NCBI RefSeq assembly: GCF_011038845.1
Contig: NZ_JAAKDW010000003.1
Location: forward strand, 62,001 to 126,000
DNA: 64,000 bases
Origin: Enterococcus sp. ZJ1622
GTDB lineage: Bacteria; Bacillota; Bacilli; Lactobacillales; Enterococcaceae
Direction: 5' to 3'
Under the pieces are notes generated by a model. That model was not told the origin of the DNA. It saw only the letters and a program-made list of their open reading frames with translations, and did no database searches. Below are positions 42,532 to 50,264 of this stretch, piece by piece. Within the stretch, counting starts at the first letter, position 1, and each line of letters begins with the position of its first letter. The position numbers and the translations under genes are program-made.

Positions 42532-43375
42532 AATCAAAAGTGAAAAAGAAAAAATGATCGCAGGAGAGCTTTATTTTGCCAACGACCCAGAGCTTGTAGC
42601 AGACCGGAAATTTGCCCGGGGACAAAGCCAGATCATCAATCAGGCCGAAACGGCAGAATTACGAGCACAATTGCTCAAAGAGACATTCGGACGCACAGGG
42701 AAAAAAATCTATATGGAACCCACCATCAATTTTGATTATGGCTATAATATATTTATCGGAGAGAATTTTTATGCGAATTTCAATTGTACGTTTTTAGACG
42801 TGAGTACGATCGAAATCGGAGATAACTGCATGTTCGCACCAAACGTCCAGCTTTACACAGCCACTCATCCGCTACATCCAGTGAAACGAAACAGCGGGTT
42901 GGAATACGCGAAACCGATCAAGATCGGGAACAATGTCTGGCTTGGCGGTGGTGTGATCATTACACCAGGCGTCACGTTGGGGGACAATGTTGTCGTAGGT
43001 GCAGGGGCAGTCGTCACGAAATCGTTTCCAGATAACGTAGTGATCGCAGGGAATCCGGCACGGATCATCAAAACTGTGGAAGAAGAACAGCCTAGACCTT
43101 CTCTTGATTCGCTACGGCAAACGATCGATGCCATCGATCAAGAGTTAGTCAGATTGCTTGAAAAAAGGATGGATACCGTAACGAGAGTCGGCGCATTGAA
43201 AAAAGAAACAGGGAAAGCTGTTCTTGATGAAAGACGCGAACAGCAAGTCTTGGCAAAAGTAGCAGGATTACTGAAAAAACCAGAGTATAAAGAAACAATC
43301 ACCAATACCTATGCAGATCTTATGAAACATTCTCGTGCATATCAAGACAAGATGAAAAAGGAGGAGCAGGAGTGA
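42524..43375 (+). CDS. Maltose O-acetyltransferase-like protein fused to chorismate mutase domain
   Basis: 283 residues, ATG 42524 behind AGGAG. The N-terminal part (1-187) has the Mac region ([16 protein letters not shown]) and a left-handed beta helix with hexapeptide repeats ([18 protein letters not shown]-type, GNPARIIK end), like maltose/galactoside acetyltransferases. The C-terminal part (about 194-275: [40 protein letters not shown]) is an AroQ-type chorismate mutase domain. The two functions are not normally linked. Neither a missing active site nor a frameshift is apparent. It is coupled to the Sir2 remnant and to NiaR by overlaps. Confidence 0.85.
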
Positions 43376-43893
43376 TCGAAGGAGACAAACGGCGCCAGCA
43401 AATCATGCAGACCTTAGCAGGTGAACAGCGGCCTATCAGTGCCAGCCGATTCGCCAAGAATTTTGGTGTGAGTCGTCAGATCATTGTGGGAGACATCGCA
43501 CTGCTACGTGCCGCTGGAAAGAACATCATTGCAACAGCAAGAGGATATATCCTTGAAACAGAAGAAACCAATACTGGACATGTCAGTAAAATCGCTGTGC
43601 AGCATGGGAAGGATCAGACGGAAGAAGAGCTTCGTCTGATCGTAGAAAATGGTGGAGAGATCATCGATGTGATCGTGGAGCACCCGCTCTATGGAGAACT
43701 GACAGGAACGCTACACATCAAAACGGCACAAGACATCGATTCGTTCATGAGACGTTACGAAAAAAGCAATGCCTCTTTATTGTCCGAATTGACCGATGGG
43801 ATCCACCTGCATACGATCCGCTATCCAGAAAAACACATGCTGAAAACCATCAGACAAAAGCTGGCTGAAGCAGGGATCTTGTACGAAGGATAA
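43372..43893 (+). CDS. niaR: NAD biosynthesis/niacin-responsive repressor NiaR (HTH-3H)
   Basis: 173 residues from GTG 43372, overlapping the previous stop by 4 bases. N-terminal HTH_11 (about 5-58; [25 protein letters not shown]). The C-terminal 3H domain (about 75-170) has its conserved His residues in [16 protein letters not shown] and LHTIRYPE. NiaR binds nicotinic acid and represses NAD synthesis or niacin uptake genes in Firmicutes. No nadABC or niaP is adjacent. Link with an NAD-consuming sirtuin gene in the same transcript is suggestive. Confidence 0.88.
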
Positions 43894-43935
43894 CATGCTC
43901 TACACAAAAACAACTGAATAGAACAACCTTAAAGA

Positions 43936-43966
43936 ACTGGCGAAATCCTAACGCCAGTTTTTTTAT
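43936..43966 (+). terminator. niaR terminator, start of the shared intergenic block
   Basis: ACTGGCG (43936-43942) pairs with CGCCAGT (43952-43958), followed by seven T. The CGCCAG-T-run-TTTTGAGAAAAA sequence recurs before the next two genes. Confidence 0.88.
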
Positions 43967-44028
43967 TTTTGAGAAAAAATTGTTCTACTTATCAGAATAA
44001 ATCACTGTATACTTTTTAATAAAAGGAG
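43951..44028 (+). repeat. Shared terminator-promoter block, copy 1
   Basis: AACGCCAG, T run, ATTTTTGAGAAAAA and TTGTTC are followed 22 bases later by TATACT and then AAGGAG. Copies stand at about 45333-45450 and 47927-48022. In copies 1 and 3 the TTGTTC to TATACT distance is the same (22). The block probably carries the promoter of the downstream gene. Confidence 0.6.
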
Positions 44029-44037
44029 ATGTTCAAA

Positions 44038-45306
44038 ATGGATTCAGAGAAACAGAAAGGACAAAAAATCAGTTTATTTGTAAAAGAAAATGCAACAGAT
44101 TGGGATAAAAATCTTGATGAAATTATTTTTAAATTGAAAAATCCTACGAAAAAAGACCATGAGATTTCATACATTAATGATTATATCTCTGCTACAGTCG
44201 ATGCACTCTTCGCAAATCAAAAGGAATTTTCTAACAAAGACCATAGGCAACACTTTTTTGAGAATTTCACAAATTATATCCCATCAGATAAAAAGAACTG
44301 GAATTTGTGGGACGATTTCCAAAAAGTCAGTAGAAGTTTTGAGGAACTCAAATTAGAAAACATATGTAACAATCTAGGCGTCCATTTTGACAAAGAATTG
44401 ACGAATGATGATAAACTAAAAATCATTGGTTACTTGAATGATTTGAAAGGAGAAATAACCGTAGAAATAGCAAAGATCAATCCAATGACGGAATTGAACT
44501 TTGATTATGATCCGATGCGAATATATGCAGAAGACCAACTAGAGGATGTATCTCATGCTCCATCAGATTATTACGATAGTGAGGTCAGTTATGATTGTTA
44601 TATTGATAGAAAGGATTTTGATAAATATGCCGATAAACTAGAGGCTAAGGGGGGAATTTACTATGTAATTCTGGATATTGAAAAGCAAATTCCAAGTGGA
44701 AAAGAAGATCATTTTTACAGTAAAACATCGGACCATCCAGCAATTAGATATGCATATTACAATAAGGAAAGTTTGAAAGGACAGATTTTTCTGTTTGATC
44801 GCAATTTAAAAATTGCTGATAAACTACCATGGGAAAGAGAAGAACTTGCTGAAGAATGGAAAAAATGTAAAATAATCCCTCTTACACCTGTCACTCAAGA
44901 AGAAAACACGCTTCCTAAAGAGAAATTGAGCGAAACACGGATACACCAGCCAATACATTCACAACAAAATCAGCAAACAAATAAACCAAAAAGGCAAAAA
45001 CACGCTTTGCCAGACATCTTGGAAATAGATGTAAAAGAATATAAGCTAATGAGAACTGCTCAATGGGTAGCAGCTTCGACATCAGGATTAGTACCAGAGA
45101 ATCTAAAACAGTCCACATCTGAAGCAAAACAACAAAGTCGTACAAAAGAGAATATCGACATGAAAGACCCTTCAGTCATCCGCGCCACTCATGATACTAA
45201 AAAACTAAAAGAATTGGTTGTACCAGCGGTCTGCGCAGCAACTAAACAGAAGAAAGCGGAGAAAAAAAAGAACTGGTTAAAAAATTTGATAGTTTGCTAT
45301 AGATGA
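44038..45306 (+). CDS. NLWxxFQ-module protein A (unrecognised family)
   Basis: 422 residues, ATG 44038, ten bases after AAGGAG; ATG 44029 is too close. I do not recognise the family. One module spans about 40-285: YISATVDALFANQKEF, then NLWDDFQKVSRSFEELKLENIC (first part at 89-95), VEIAKINPM (142-150), LNFDYDP (153-159), LPWERE (263-268), W274 and LTPVT (282-286). It is followed by a long polar Gln/Lys/Asn-rich tail (290-422). No signal peptide, no membrane span. It is nearest to the third module of the next gene. Cytoplasmic location is inferred. Low GC relative to neighbours suggests acquisition or fast evolution. Confidence 0.7.
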   Translation: MDSEKQKGQKISLFVKENATDWDKNLDEIIFKLKNPTKKDHEISYINDYISATVDALFANQKEFSNKDHRQHFFENFTNYIPSDKKNWNLWDDFQKVSRSFEELKLENICNNLGVHFDKELTNDDKLKIIGYLNDLKGEITVEIAKINPMTELNFDYDPMRIYAEDQLEDVSHAPSDYYDSEVSYDCYIDRKDFDKYADKLEAKGGIYYVILDIEKQIPSGKEDHFYSKTSDHPAIRYAYYNKESLKGQIFLFDRNLKIADKLPWEREELAEEWKKCKIIPLTPVTQEENTLPKEKLSETRIHQPIHSQQNQQTNKPKRQKHALPDILEIDVKEYKLMRTAQWVAASTSGLVPENLKQSTSEAKQQSRTKENIDMKDPSVIRATHDTKKLKELVVPAVCAATKQKKAEKKKNWLKNLIVCYR

Positions 45307-45332
45307 GCCGCGATGAAATAAAACAGATAGAA

Positions 45333-45450
45333 AAAGCCAACGCCAGTTTTTTTATTTTTGAGAAAAAGCTGTTCTATTTGTCTGGATACATTCTGTTAAA
45401 CTTTTCGGATAAGCAGTTGAATCGCAAAATGATACACATAGGAAAGGAAA
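45333..45450 (+). repeat. Shared terminator-promoter block, copy 2
   Basis: AACGCCAG, T run, ATTTTTGAGAAAAA, CTGTTC, then TTAAACTTTTCGGATA where copy 3 has TATACTTTTCGATA. The matching CTGGCG arm is missing here, so this copy no longer forms the terminator hairpin. Confidence 0.55.
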
Positions 45451-45459
45451 AGTTGACAA

Positions 45460-47889
45460 ATGAATCCAAAAGAGCGAACGATGGAAGAACTAAAGATCCA
45501 ATTGTTTTACCCTAGAGCTAGAGAGTATGGCGAATGCTTGGACGATTATTTGAAAATAATGGCAAGATCGCTCGCACAACGAGATAGTAATGAGCTTGAT
45601 TCAAGAACATTCCAGGAAGAATTTTTTAACACTCTACCTCAGTTTATTGACTACAGGGAAAAAAATCGGAATTTATGGGGAGCGTTTCAAGAGGCCAGCC
45701 ATTTTTTTGTGGGGGCTTTTACCCATGATTTTTTTGGTAATCGAACATTTAGCAGGGCTTTTTCTAATTCAGAAGGTGAAGAAAGATATCAGTTAATCTA
45801 TGATCTTTTAAGAAAACACGGAGCAAAAGCAGCAGTAGAAATAATGAAAGCTAGGCCCGAACTTCAGATGAACCTTTTTTACGATCCGCAGTATGAACGG
45901 GCGCTTGAGCTAACGTCTGGAAGTGACAAGACAGTCGAACTGTCTCCGGGCATTTTAACGGATCATCTTGAATCTTGGGATGAGAAAGTAGAAGTGATCG
46001 AGGCAGACATTGCCTTAGGAAAAGATCAGACCGAAACAGGCGAAGTGATAAGAGAGGTCTATGCCGCCAAAGAAGCGTTGGAGAACAGAGTGCACTACTT
46101 TGGAGCAATGAATAAAACAGCTGTCCCTGCACCGTGGGAAAAAAACGAAAAGCTTTCCGAAATTTGGAGAGGAACGGTTCCTTTTCGGCAAGAGGATCGT
46201 CTTATCGATGAGAGCGAACAGATTCATAAAGGCATCCAGGGGAAAATCCTATTAACTTACGGAAAAGAGTTTTCAGGTCAGGAAAACGGATTTGTTTTAG
46301 AACGTTGTGAGAACTACGTCGAAGCGATCGCCATAATGATCGAGAAACAAAAAGAAACGAAAGACTTGTCTAAAGATGTTTTAGAAAACTTTCTTAAATA
46401 TATCGAACCTGATCAAAGACAGGGGAATCTATGGGGAGAATTTCAAAAAGTCAGCCGTAAGTTCGAGGAGTTTCATTTAGAAAATATCCTGAAATGGGAG
46501 GAGTCTAGTAGACAGATACATCCAGTTTATGATGTAAAGCAGAGTTTGAATCAATGGGTCGGGAAAATGGCAGTAGAATTAGCAAAAGAAAATCCGCAGA
46601 TTGCCTTGGGTATCTACTATGATCCTCAATTGGAATGTGTGAAGTATCAGAACTTGGATCGTCCGTTGAATGCTCTTGAGATCCTCACGACGAAGCTTAC
46701 GCGCGATCAAGATTTATATCAAATGGAAAAGGCACTGGCAAAGAAGGAATATGTATCTGGCACCTCTCATTGTCTAAATTATTTATATCGTAATGAAGAA
46801 CAGCTTTCTGACAGGATTTATTTTTATGATAGGAAAAGTAGACTGAATGATGAGGCGCCTTGGAGCAAAAAGAACGAGCTAGGTACCATATGGAAAGAAA
46901 TGAACGCCCAAGCTTGGGACGGGGTGGATATGAATGCTGCGTTGACACTTGCTGGTAAACTACGTGAAAAGCAAAAAATCAGTTTCTTTTTCAACAGAGA
47001 TGAGATAAGAAAAGGGAAAAATAATAAAAAAAACATCATGCCATGGCTCAGAGGCTATTTTTCAGCTATAGCCGATACATTGATCGAACATCAGTCCAAA
47101 CTTTCTGATCCAGGTTTTAGACAATACTTTTTTGAACACGCTACAGAGTATATTTTGCCAGAAAAAAAACACTGGGTATTGTGGGACGACTGGCAAAAAG
47201 TCAGTAGAGGATTTGAGGAACTCAAACTAGAAACGATCTGTAAAGAACTAAATGTCAACTTTGATCATAAGCTTGATAACAGCTTCAAGAAAAATCTCGT
47301 GGAATATTTAGGCGACATGGAGCACGCCATAGCGATAGAAATAGCAAAAATAAATCCAATGGTCGAATTGAATGTTTATTATGATCCCACGTTTTTCCAT
47401 GCGCTAGAAGTAAAGCAAGAATCGTTTGGCGCGACTGAATTAATCGAAATAGTAGAAGGTTGGGAAGAGGGGATAGCCTTAAAAGAAAAAGAGATCGCAG
47501 ATGGAACGGAAGGAAGTTATTCCAGTCAAGCGCTCCAAGAGGTGTATCCTCATCATAAAAAATTAACGGGAAGGATCTGTTTATTTGATGAAAAGAATAA
47601 TATCTCTAATGAGTTGCCATGGGAAAGAAACGAGAAGTTAGCTCGAATATGGGAAGAAAAATGTAAAAAGAAGACACTTACGCCAGTTGCCGGACAAGAT
47701 GTCCAGCATCCGTCGAATAAACGAAAAAATATAGAAGAAGGCCAACGAACAATTGAACAAATCAAATATAGAGTCATGCATCGCATGAAGACAAATGAAA
47801 AAATCTCATTGGACAGTCATCCATTGTTCCAGTCCAAGAAAAAACAGCATGTTGAGAAAGAAGCGGCAGAAGCCTTTACTAACAAGTGA
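45460..47889 (+). CDS. NLWxxFQ-module protein B, three tandem modules (unrecognised family)
   Basis: 809 residues, ATG 45460 after AAAGGA. Three copies of a ~240-residue module: about 11-240, 261-480 and 504-735. Each has, in order: NLWGAFQEAS (71), NLWGEFQKVS (323), VLWDDWQKVS (573); AAVEIMKARP, MAVELAKENP, IAIEIAKINP; LFYDPQYE, IYYDPQLE, VYYDPTFF; then an F/Y-D turn and APWEKNEKLSEIW, APWSKKNELGTIW, LPWERNEKLARIW. Modules 2 and 3 are the most alike. A polar tail (about 740-809) has IEQIKYRVMHRMKTNEKISL, echoed in protein C. No enzyme motif, signal or membrane segment is seen. Function unknown; scaffold or binding role is a guess. Confidence 0.72.
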   Translation: MNPKERTMEELKIQLFYPRAREYGECLDDYLKIMARSLAQRDSNELDSRTFQEEFFNTLPQFIDYREKNRNLWGAFQEASHFFVGAFTHDFFGNRTFSRAFSNSEGEERYQLIYDLLRKHGAKAAVEIMKARPELQMNLFYDPQYERALELTSGSDKTVELSPGILTDHLESWDEKVEVIEADIALGKDQTETGEVIREVYAAKEALENRVHYFGAMNKTAVPAPWEKNEKLSEIWRGTVPFRQEDRLIDESEQIHKGIQGKILLTYGKEFSGQENGFVLERCENYVEAIAIMIEKQKETKDLSKDVLENFLKYIEPDQRQGNLWGEFQKVSRKFEEFHLENILKWEESSRQIHPVYDVKQSLNQWVGKMAVELAKENPQIALGIYYDPQLECVKYQNLDRPLNALEILTTKLTRDQDLYQMEKALAKKEYVSGTSHCLNYLYRNEEQLSDRIYFYDRKSRLNDEAPWSKKNELGTIWKEMNAQAWDGVDMNAALTLAGKLREKQKISFFFNRDEIRKGKNNKKNIMPWLRGYFSAIADTLIEHQSKLSDPGFRQYFFEHATEYILPEKKHWVLWDDWQKVSRGFEELKLETICKELNVNFDHKLDNSFKKNLVEYLGDMEHAIAIEIAKINPMVELNVYYDPTFFHALEVKQESFGATELIEIVEGWEEGIALKEKEIADGTEGSYSSQALQEVYPHHKKLTGRICLFDEKNNISNELPWERNEKLARIWEEKCKKKTLTPVAGQDVQHPSNKRKNIEEGQRTIEQIKYRVMHRMKTNEKISLDSHPLFQSKKKQHVEKEAAEAFTNK

Positions 47890-47917
47890 GCTAGACAATT
47901 GAATGAGCCAGCATTCG

Positions 47918-48022
47918 AACTGGCGGGAGTCCAACGCCAGTTTTTTTATTTTCAAGAAAAAGTTGTTCCTTCGGTCTGTACAAACTACTCTATACTTTTC
48001 GATAGGTCAGGAAAAGGAGAGA
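47918..48022 (+). repeat. Shared terminator-promoter block, copy 3
   Basis: ACTGGCG/CGCCAGT hairpin with T run, ATTTTCAAGAAAAA, TTGTTC and, 22 bases on, TATACT, then AAAGGAGAG. It acts as terminator of gene B and probably as promoter of gene C. Confidence 0.6.
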
Positions 48023-48028
48023 GTAAAA

Positions 48029-49093
48029 ATGAACCAAGAAAAACAGAAAGAACAAAGAAGCCGTACGCGAGTGGATAAGTCGTCAGAACAAACAAATCTT
48101 TTTTCGAAAGAAGGAGCTGAGACCATCGAAGCTAAAAGTGACAAAAATATGTATATGGTTTATGGGAAAGAAAAGGACATAAGAAGTTTTCTCGATAAGA
48201 ATCCAGCCTGGAAAAAAGAACTTAGTGAAGGAGAGAAAAGAAATGTTCCTTTTACACCCTATACCTATGGTTATGATCTTAAGGTTGAAAATGAACGTTA
48301 TAAAGATTCAGACGTTCTTATCAGAGAATTTCTATTTACAGGTTACTGGGTGGTTATAGAACCTGACAACAAAAAATTTATCTTATGGGATGACATCCAT
48401 CCGATTATGACATCTCGCGAGGCATTTAAACCAGATAATCTTGCGAAAGGAGCAGATATAGATGCCTGCTTTGAAATGATCCTGTTAGAAGTCGCAAAAG
48501 AACGTTCGGATTTAAAGATCGTTATGTGTGACGATCATAGCATAGCAGATAAAGATGCAAAAATTGTTGACGGGCGTCGGACAGACTCGCTTGCTGCGGC
48601 TATCCGTTACATTTATCATACGCCAGAGCTTAGAGATAAAGTCTTTTTTTATGATGGTGACAAACAATTGGAAGTGCCATGGGAGAAAAATCCTAAGTTG
48701 TGGAAGTCCTGTTCCAGAGACTTTGGGATGGATCTAAGTCTAGTTGCTCCATTGACTCAGTCGAAAAGTTTACCTCAAGACAAGTCAGCTCAGCTACCTG
48801 ACTTAGCTTCTCGTCATAACCAAAAATCTTTGACAGATTTCATAAATGGTGCCAAGACTAAGCAAGAAGACACACAGCAGCATAAAGAGTTGAAAGCACA
48901 GCGATCATTGGGAGGTGTAAGTTCAAAGATGAAACGCAGTGGAACAAAAAAAGATTCTCCATCAAAAGCAGGGCAACAAAGGATAGAACAACTCAAAAAG
49001 GATTCAGTGGGACATAGAGAAAGCCTATTATTAGATAGAAAACCAAATAATAAATTATCTCTACCGAGGTCAACGCAGCATTATGAAGTTTAA
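48029..49093 (+). CDS. NLWxxFQ-module protein C, diverged single module (unrecognised family)
   Basis: 354 residues, ATG 48029 behind AAAGGAGAG; the frame extends upstream only through the shared intergenic block. It is a shortened, diverged relative: polar N-terminus (1-40), then FILWDDIHPIM (about 118), MILLEVAKERSDLKIVMCDD (about 146), KVFFYDGDKQLEVPWEKNPKLW (in part, about 209) and APLTQ. The Q/K-rich tail includes RIEQLKKDSVGHRESLLL (about 315), similar to the tail of protein B. It lacks the FQKVSRxFEE helix. No signal peptide or membrane span. Confidence 0.68.
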   Translation: MNQEKQKEQRSRTRVDKSSEQTNLFSKEGAETIEAKSDKNMYMVYGKEKDIRSFLDKNPAWKKELSEGEKRNVPFTPYTYGYDLKVENERYKDSDVLIREFLFTGYWVVIEPDNKKFILWDDIHPIMTSREAFKPDNLAKGADIDACFEMILLEVAKERSDLKIVMCDDHSIADKDAKIVDGRRTDSLAAAIRYIYHTPELRDKVFFYDGDKQLEVPWEKNPKLWKSCSRDFGMDLSLVAPLTQSKSLPQDKSAQLPDLASRHNQKSLTDFINGAKTKQEDTQQHKELKAQRSLGGVSSKMKRSGTKKDSPSKAGQQRIEQLKKDSVGHRESLLLDRKPNNKLSLPRSTQHYEV

Positions 49094-49112: not shown

Positions 49113-49161
49113 ATAAAAAAAGATGGAGCTGTGACAAAAGTCTTGTCGTAGCTCCTTTTTT
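49113..49161. terminator. Repeat-derived terminator after protein C gene
   Basis: GGAGCTGTGACAA pairs with TTGTCGTAGCTCC, followed by six T. Same module as at 33047, 38142 and 57260. Confidence 0.85.
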
Positions 49162-49661
49162 CGAATAAACGGTGTTCCAGTACCAACTTTTCGGAGATAA
49201 GCCTAATTTATGCCAAAATGTGAGAAGCCATTTTCACAAAATTTTTCTTATTGCGTTAAATCACGAAGAACATCAGTGATTCGATGATGCAACGTACCTA
49301 CTTGGCCCTCAAAGCTGAACGGCACTGTCACAACCTCTCTATAAACAGTGTTCCCCTGCCAACTCCTCGGGCACAAGTCACAATATTCATCAAACATGAG
49401 AAGCTGTTTTTTGAAATTGTTCCTTATCGCTCAAGGTTGAACATCTCTTTCGCAACCTCTCCACTAAACGGTGTTCAAAAGCTTGCATCTGCGGTAATAA
49501 GCCCAACCAAACGAAAAATATGAAGAGCTATTTTTTTTGGTTGTTCTTATTACTTGATGCAGATCAGCTTTTTCACGACCTCTGATTCACGGTGTTCAAA
49601 TTGCTGCTTTTCTGTTCAGTGTCCTGATTCCTTAAAGCAGAACGCAGTTGTCACAACCTCA
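49162..49661. repeat. Largest modular intergenic repeat cluster (at least four units, reverse)
   Basis: Reverse-oriented units run from GGTGTTC to CACAACCTC or CACGACCTC, with boundaries near 49171, 49348, 49463 and 49590, ending at 49660. One unit contains CTGCCAACTCCTCGGGCACAAG, in part the complement of 13480-13509. Others carry AATAAG/CTTATT inverted repeats. Unit types are mixed and some are truncated. No gene is supported. Confidence 0.85.
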
Positions 49662-49700
49662 TCTCCTGATCGTATAAAAGCAACAAATCATCCACGCTCT

Positions 49701-50264
49701 TTATTCGATCACCAGCACGCCTTCTTTTAACGCAAATGGGTTTTTATCATTGATGTGGTCATAGAACATCACACCGTTGATATGATCGATCTCATGCTGA
49801 ACGACGATCGATTCATAGTTTTTCAAACGGATCTTGTGCTTTTCACCGTTCATATCATAATAAGAGACAGTGATTTTTGCGTGACGCACCACATATCCTG
49901 GAACTTCACGATCGACAGACAGACAGCCTTCTCCTTCGCCCAAGCAGGCATCTTGGACAGAATGGCTCAAGATCTTCGGATTGTACATGACAGTACTCAA
50001 TGTTGGCTCCTCAACTTCCGGATCAGCACTTGGCACATGTACAGCGATGATTCGTTTCGAGATGTCTAGTTGTGGCGCCGCTAAACCGACACCGCCTCGC
50101 AGATGCAGTTCTTCTGCTTTGATTGGGTCTTGACTGTTTTTCAGGAATTCAAGCATTTCTTTTCCCAGATTGATGTCTTCTTCGCTTAATGGAAGAGACA
50201 CTTCTTTTGCTACTTCGCGTAATGTCGGATTACCTTCACGAATGATATCATCCATTGTGATCAT
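49701..50264 (-). CDS. def: Peptide deformylase
   Basis: 187 residues, ATG 50264 behind AAGGGG. Motif 1 is GGVGLAAPQ (about 57-65), motif 2 EGCLSV (about 112-117), motif 3 [12 protein letters not shown] (about 156-167) with the HExxH-type metal ligands. The long form with insertion after motif 1 marks Gram-positive type 2 deformylases. It removes the formyl group from new proteins. No fmt is adjacent. Confidence 0.97.

Follow-up and report, generated by a model that had tools for sequence, protein, structure and literature searches.

Diverged tandem modules of a species-variable enterococcal gene array appear related to the C-terminal domain of the EspK and GogB effectors

What kind of protein is encoded by the three consecutive genes that separate a niaR-like regulator gene from the peptide deformylase gene def in Enterococcus sp. 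ZJ1622? We analyzed a 64,000-nucleotide (nt) stretch of this genome (NCBI RefSeq assembly GCF_011038845.1, contig NZ_JAAKDW010000003.1, positions 62,001 to 126,000 of the forward strand), hereafter called the window, in which a first, sequence-only reading had described the three genes as an array of an unrecognised modular protein family. We conclude that the array very probably consists of tandem, diverged copies of an effector-type domain, which is otherwise the C-terminal part of EspK and GogB and appears as a stand-alone protein in other enterococci and some proteobacteria.

The three open reading frames (ORFs) have the positions and lengths reported in the sequence-only reading (Table 1), and pairwise and profile searches agreed with its count of five copies of a module common to all three proteins, distributed 1/3/1 over genes 1, 2 and 3. 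Modules were compared as single sequences with phmmer against a null of 1000 shuffled targets per query, for which the best shuffled score per query was 4e-4 to 0.5. M3 matched P1 with an expect value (E) of 2e-46, M2 at 2e-23 and M1 at 5e-21, and M1 matched M2 at 4e-14 and P1 at 8e-12. The diverged P3 matched M3 at 4e-9, P1 at 2e-6 and M2 at 5e-6; its similarity to M1 (E 0.015-0.08) was at the level of the shuffled targets. Landmarks said to keep their order (LW..[FW]Q, [VI]E.[AM]K, YDP, PW[ES]) do so in four copies but are altered in P3, where the equivalents are LWDDIH, LEVAK, CDDH and PWE, and a tail segment thought to be shared, IEQ[IL]K, is present in genes 2 and 3 but absent from gene 1.

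To relate the module to known proteins, we searched 1086 targets, including the window ORFs, 900 shuffles and three reversed proteins, with profiles built without members of the window locus. A profile of 15 canonical Lactobacillales members found gene 2 at 1.4e-21, gene 1 at 3.8e-13 and gene 3 at 7.9e-9 (best shuffled 0.057), while one of four proteobacterial members found gene 2 at 2.4e-15 and gene 3 at 9.2e-6 (best shuffled 0.14). Conversely, a profile made from the window modules together with those of genome G010 retrieved, among the matches listed, canonical members from 6.2e-13 and a Paracaedibacteraceae protein at 4.6e-9. A one-to-one profile-profile comparison of alignments A1 and A3 gave a probability of 97.3 and an E of 2.3e-11 over 86 columns. 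The EspK/GogB model was matched by a Candidatus Odyssella protein at 6.8e-6 (positions 357-444 of 454), by a Rhodocyclaceae protein at 3.7e-4 and by the Paracaedibacteraceae protein at 0.015, as well as by 10 of the 14 rows of alignment A2 (E up to 10, best 2.7e-6). Across 15 genomes of the genus, searched at E up to 10, it matched 11 places in five genomes, with E values from 1.3e-7 to 0.049; every one of these lies at model positions 349-451 of 454 and overlaps a place found with the A1 profile. These sequence relationships make homology of the module family to the EspK/GogB C-terminal domain well supported, with the window modules included via intermediates.

Pfam, NCBIfam, PHROGs and PADLOC gave no convincing match for the three window proteins; NCBIfam returned no family at E up to 5, no Pfam family was matched consistently by the module, and no solved relative of it turned up by sequence. 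The earlier remark that no known family is recognisable is nevertheless not supported: no curated family fits, but profile searches place the module in part within a characterised family, as a remote relative of the EspK/GogB C-terminal domain. AlphaFold2 predicted an alpha/beta fold in two models with predicted local distance difference test (pLDDT) values of 88 and 93.5, M3 being the sole window module folded, and the predicted fold, which was also compared with solved TIR and SEFIR domains, had no clear match in the PDB. The pairwise and profile relations support the earlier proposal of a shared module, and the fold prediction for M3 is confident.

Relatives of the module are found well beyond the window. 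When 105 genomes of the bacterial family were searched with the A1 profile, 12 gave a match: 11 of the 15 genus genomes, and one outside the genus whose marginal match we rejected. Other module loci lie near trxB/pgm-like and murJ-like genes (names assigned by eye) and elsewhere. Alignment A2 comprises 14 proteins, 13 from such other loci and one from the niaR-def site of G008, and is invariant at W90, G143, G147, D164, T185, E188, L189, R190, Y191, R194 and F205. Scanning genome contigs with A2 yielded 16 relatives among 31 pattern stretches, at 15 loci: ten enterococcal, one each in Candidatus Odyssella, Paracaedibacteraceae and Rhodocyclaceae, and two in Methylomonas. With alignment A5 (the five window modules and 20 other rows) as the query, members turned up in seven of 295 genomes of the order; six of these belong to the genus, and the seventh, G228, lies outside it and has two genes. 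A stand-alone relative is encoded on the Enterobacter soli plasmid pENTAS01, 1.4 kb from an OspG-type kinase gene (L077 6049-6627, minus strand) that passes the Pfam cut-off for the OspG effector kinase (27.9 versus 27 bits). The two alphaproteobacterial members, which come from groups of amoeba endosymbionts, carry signal-like N-terminal stretches as judged by eye. Upstream of module genes at different loci (L056, L057, L058), a GAAAAAA stretch recurs about 30-40 bases 5' of a TATACT box, an arrangement that is less clear upstream of the window genes (both by eye).

Copy-number variation, which the sequence-only reading had noted within the locus, proved strong between species when niaR-def intervals were compared, using one genome per species, and marks the site as a hotspot. 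The interval lies on a single contig in 14 of the 15 genomes, the two genes being on different contigs in G001, and 10 of these 14 intervals contain the module, with one to many module genes. The two genes lie 5.8 kb apart in the window, 1.8 kb in G010, 3.3 in G006, 3.5 in G014, 4.6 in both G012 and G004, 7.8 in G008, 3.9 in G011, 1.1 in G002, 0.26 in G007, about 40 in G005 (with runs of N) and 1.74 in each of G003, G009 and G013. In the last three, a sigma-factor-like and anti-sigma-like gene pair stands in place of modules (by eye; L018, L019, L020). The G007 site is empty, with the leader described below also absent, and G012 has a decayed module copy with 10 stops. In G010, a single 510-residue protein joins a P1/M3-like module (46% identical to M3) to a gene 3-like tail (37% over 145 residues, E 2.9e-23), and this fused gene looks like a collapsed array.

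The modules change far faster than the flanking genes. Between the window and G010, the nonsynonymous rate (dN) was 0.44 for M3, 0.43 for P1 and 0.47 for the tail, compared with 0.07 for the niaR-like gene, 0.01 for def and 0.10 and 0.04 for two more neighbors; the synonymous rate (dS) exceeded 1 in all pairs except the tail (0.74). We also counted conserved polar residues in A5, a single low-identity MAFFT alignment. Eighteen of the 20 non-window rows have E188, whereas none of the five window modules does; the corresponding fractions are 19/20 and 1/5 for R194 and 20/20 and 3/5 for R190, and D164 is present in all 25. One non-window row, from the niaR-def site of G005 (L071:1708), is also without E188 and R194. 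As aligned, most of the polar signature of canonical members appears to be gone from the window modules.

The same hotspots contain a second family, which we call family B. The niaR-def interval of G005 (L026, L027, L028) holds a long tandem array of it, with about 500 residues per unit and some genes carrying two to four in-line units. Conserved H.CG.TVYKK and GNC.VSEVEASL stretches recur in this array, and several of its proteins have a short QYEK-like C terminus (all by eye). In G008, G004 and G011, family B is fused to an array module. The window's own genome has one family B gene, outside the window (G000:C33, ~54.6-55.7 kb, E 5.6e-44 with the A6 profile). Family B and the array module resemble each other in their loci, tandem arrays and fusions, yet their sequences are unrelated.

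A feature that the sequence-only reading did not mention is an 88-nt leader, of which a copy precedes each of the three window genes (Table 1). The stem of copy 1 lies directly 3' of the niaR-like gene, and folding z-scores were -4.65, -1.79 and -3.37 for copies 1, 2 and 3. Between gene 3 and def, degenerate repeats at 49124-49680 form part of a dispersed repeat; a 317-base query (49124-49440) had 98 matches on many contigs of the window's own genome.

Table 1. Features of the array and its surroundings; positions are those of the window unless a locus is given
Feature	Position	Strand	Remarks
Gene 1	44038..45303	+	422 amino acids (aa), one module and polar tail
Gene 2	45460..47889	+	809 aa, three in-line modules and tail
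Gene 3	48029..49093	+	354 aa, diverged module and tail
Module P1 (gene 1)	44047..44898	+	
Module M1 (gene 2)	45475..46209	+	
Module M2 (gene 2)	46225..46929	+	
Module M3 (gene 2)	46966..47691	+	AlphaFold2 pLDDT 88.1, predicted template modelling score 0.84
Module P3 (gene 3), diverged	48140..48745	+	
Leader copy 1	43934..44021	+	terminator-like stem after upstream gene, T run, candidate promoter (promoter by eye)
Leader copy 2	45323..45410	+	5' arm of stem lost, 3' arm only
Leader copy 3	47917..48004	+	stem intact, T run
Left flank, conserved regulator gene (niaR-like by eye)	43372..43893	+	in 15/15 genus genomes, twice in G005
Right flank, peptide deformylase gene def (name by eye)	49701..50264	-	in 15/15 genus genomes
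Family B gene of own genome	L085 5629-6750	-	373 aa, adjoins DeoR-like regulator (by eye)

How might such an array have arisen, and what would it do? Because a leader copy precedes each gene, tandem duplication probably enlarged the array, with breaks close to the terminator of the niaR-like gene upstream, although the order of events is conjectural; since the copy 1 stem directly follows that gene, the duplication units probably began there. We find it quite possible, if somewhat short of an even chance, that the modules are degenerate, diversifying binding modules of the effector-type domain. They would keep the fold predicted for M3 and lose most of the polar signature, a combination that leads us to favor protein-binding modules over enzymes. 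Their likeliest role, offered tentatively and by analogy, would be to bind host or other partner proteins, with changing partners driving diversification. The occurrence of proteobacterial relatives in amoeba-endosymbiont groups, and next to an OspG-type kinase gene, favors a host-directed role. The broadest version of this proposal is rather unlikely to hold in full: that enterococci, gut commensals without a type III system, maintain arrays of the GogB/EspK C-terminal domain, along with a second effector-like family, and diversify them as host-directed proteins released in some other way, the window array being a fast-evolving branch that lost the ancestral site and gained new binding surfaces by module duplication.

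Several observations weigh against an effector-derived, host-directed array. The EspK/GogB model has no match in the window's own genome, so the window modules are tied to it via intermediates; at E up to 10 it also matches in three of the 14 control genomes, and its curated cut-offs, designed for full-length effectors, are exceeded in none of the 15 genus genomes. The four-member proteobacterial profile misses gene 1 (E 1.2), and a Pfam scan at E up to 5 found no leucine-rich repeat family in the three window proteins. The relatives in Methylomonas (47 matched residues) and in the Rhodocyclaceae metagenome-assembled genome need not be host-directed. By eye, we saw no signal or membrane segment in the window proteins, and secretion genes were likewise sought by eye. 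To our knowledge, no type III system is expected in a Gram-positive bacterium; no export route is known in enterococci for proteins without a visible signal, and host-directed action is something that we infer. Two module pairs, in which dS is saturated, gave dN/dS ratios of 0.19-0.25, and the tail gave 0.64; relaxed constraint fits these ratios as well as diversification does. Finally, Skp1 binding by GogB maps to an F-box-like stretch (residues 270-334), which need not correspond to the module (PMC3386239).

Drift and bacterial conflict are thus serious rivals to the favored reading. Under mostly neutral birth and death, the modules would be leftover paralogues drifting under weak constraint and freely lost, as the missing E188 of all window modules, the empty G007 site, the decayed G012 copy and the single fused gene of G010 could suggest. 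We consider this unlikely, given that all three window ORFs are open over up to 809 aa, the M3 fold is predicted with high confidence, dN is below dS in every pair tested and leader copies are kept. The sequence-only reading had pointed to binding, immunity or defence, and the proteins may act in one of these ways. If they are cytoplasmic conflict proteins, serving in phage defence, immunity or as decoys inside the bacterium, Gram-negatives would have borrowed the effector domain from such a family. This would be consistent with the lack of a visible signal or membrane segment, with hotspot arrays that differ between species and with the presence of the module family in environmental proteobacteria. 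Yet at E up to 5 PADLOC assigned none of the three proteins to a family, and among 25 module rows four models were each matched by one row (E up to 1, best 4e-4), which we judged to be chance. In addition, gene 2 had no match at E up to 0.01 among 50,697 phage and 72,556 plasmid records, and no A2 relative is encoded by any of 43 pattern stretches from viral contigs. Nor was a toxin, immunity, defence or partner gene recognised by eye in the loci read; we regard a conflict role as quite unlikely. It is improbable, finally, that the family is enzymatic, with the nearly invariant K, T, E, R, Y, R and D of canonical members as an active site and the window modules as pseudoenzymes that regulate or mimic them.

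The homology ties an uncharacterised, species-variable enterococcal array to a domain that is named, in the libraries searched, solely as part of Gram-negative effectors, and the module itself has no model of its own in the four libraries scanned. The link points to a testable partner class, Skp1/F-box proteins, and suggests that the C-terminal half of GogB and EspK may have originated outside type III systems. Should the proteins get to host cells, an effector domain would be in use by a commensal Gram-positive lineage that has no injection machine.

Among known systems, family B bears a weak likeness to Legionella AnkH/LegA3 (E 0.0024-0.23, at five places of four genomes and the same model stretch). 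One of 13 family B members matches, at 0.0024, and six of 14 control genomes also match at E up to 1; we treat this resemblance as a lead. For the array module the comparison is with EspK and GogB. Type III translocation and Skp1/FBXO22 binding are known for GogB; host Skp1 is the target of its C-terminal part, which also dampens NF-kappaB signalling (PMC3386239). EspK aids persistence in calves (PMC8565820). Canonical enterococcal members are homologous by profile to the EspK/GogB C-terminal domain (NCBIfam NF011916, NF011913-NF011915) over the last 100 model positions. They differ from these effectors in architecture, which is tandem or stand-alone with no leucine-rich repeat part found, and the window copies differ further in lacking most of the polar signature and a direct model match. 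The proteobacterial go-betweens match the same stretch of the model and have the conserved core in common. Stand-alone relatives from Candidatus Odyssella, Paracaedibacteraceae, Rhodocyclaceae and pENTAS01 resemble a single module with that core; in the loci read they carry one module per protein, two with the signal-like N termini, and the three aligned in A5 keep the polar signature, unlike the window copies. Partner binding by the window modules would, on this comparison, resemble the binding of host Skp1 by the C-terminal part of GogB.
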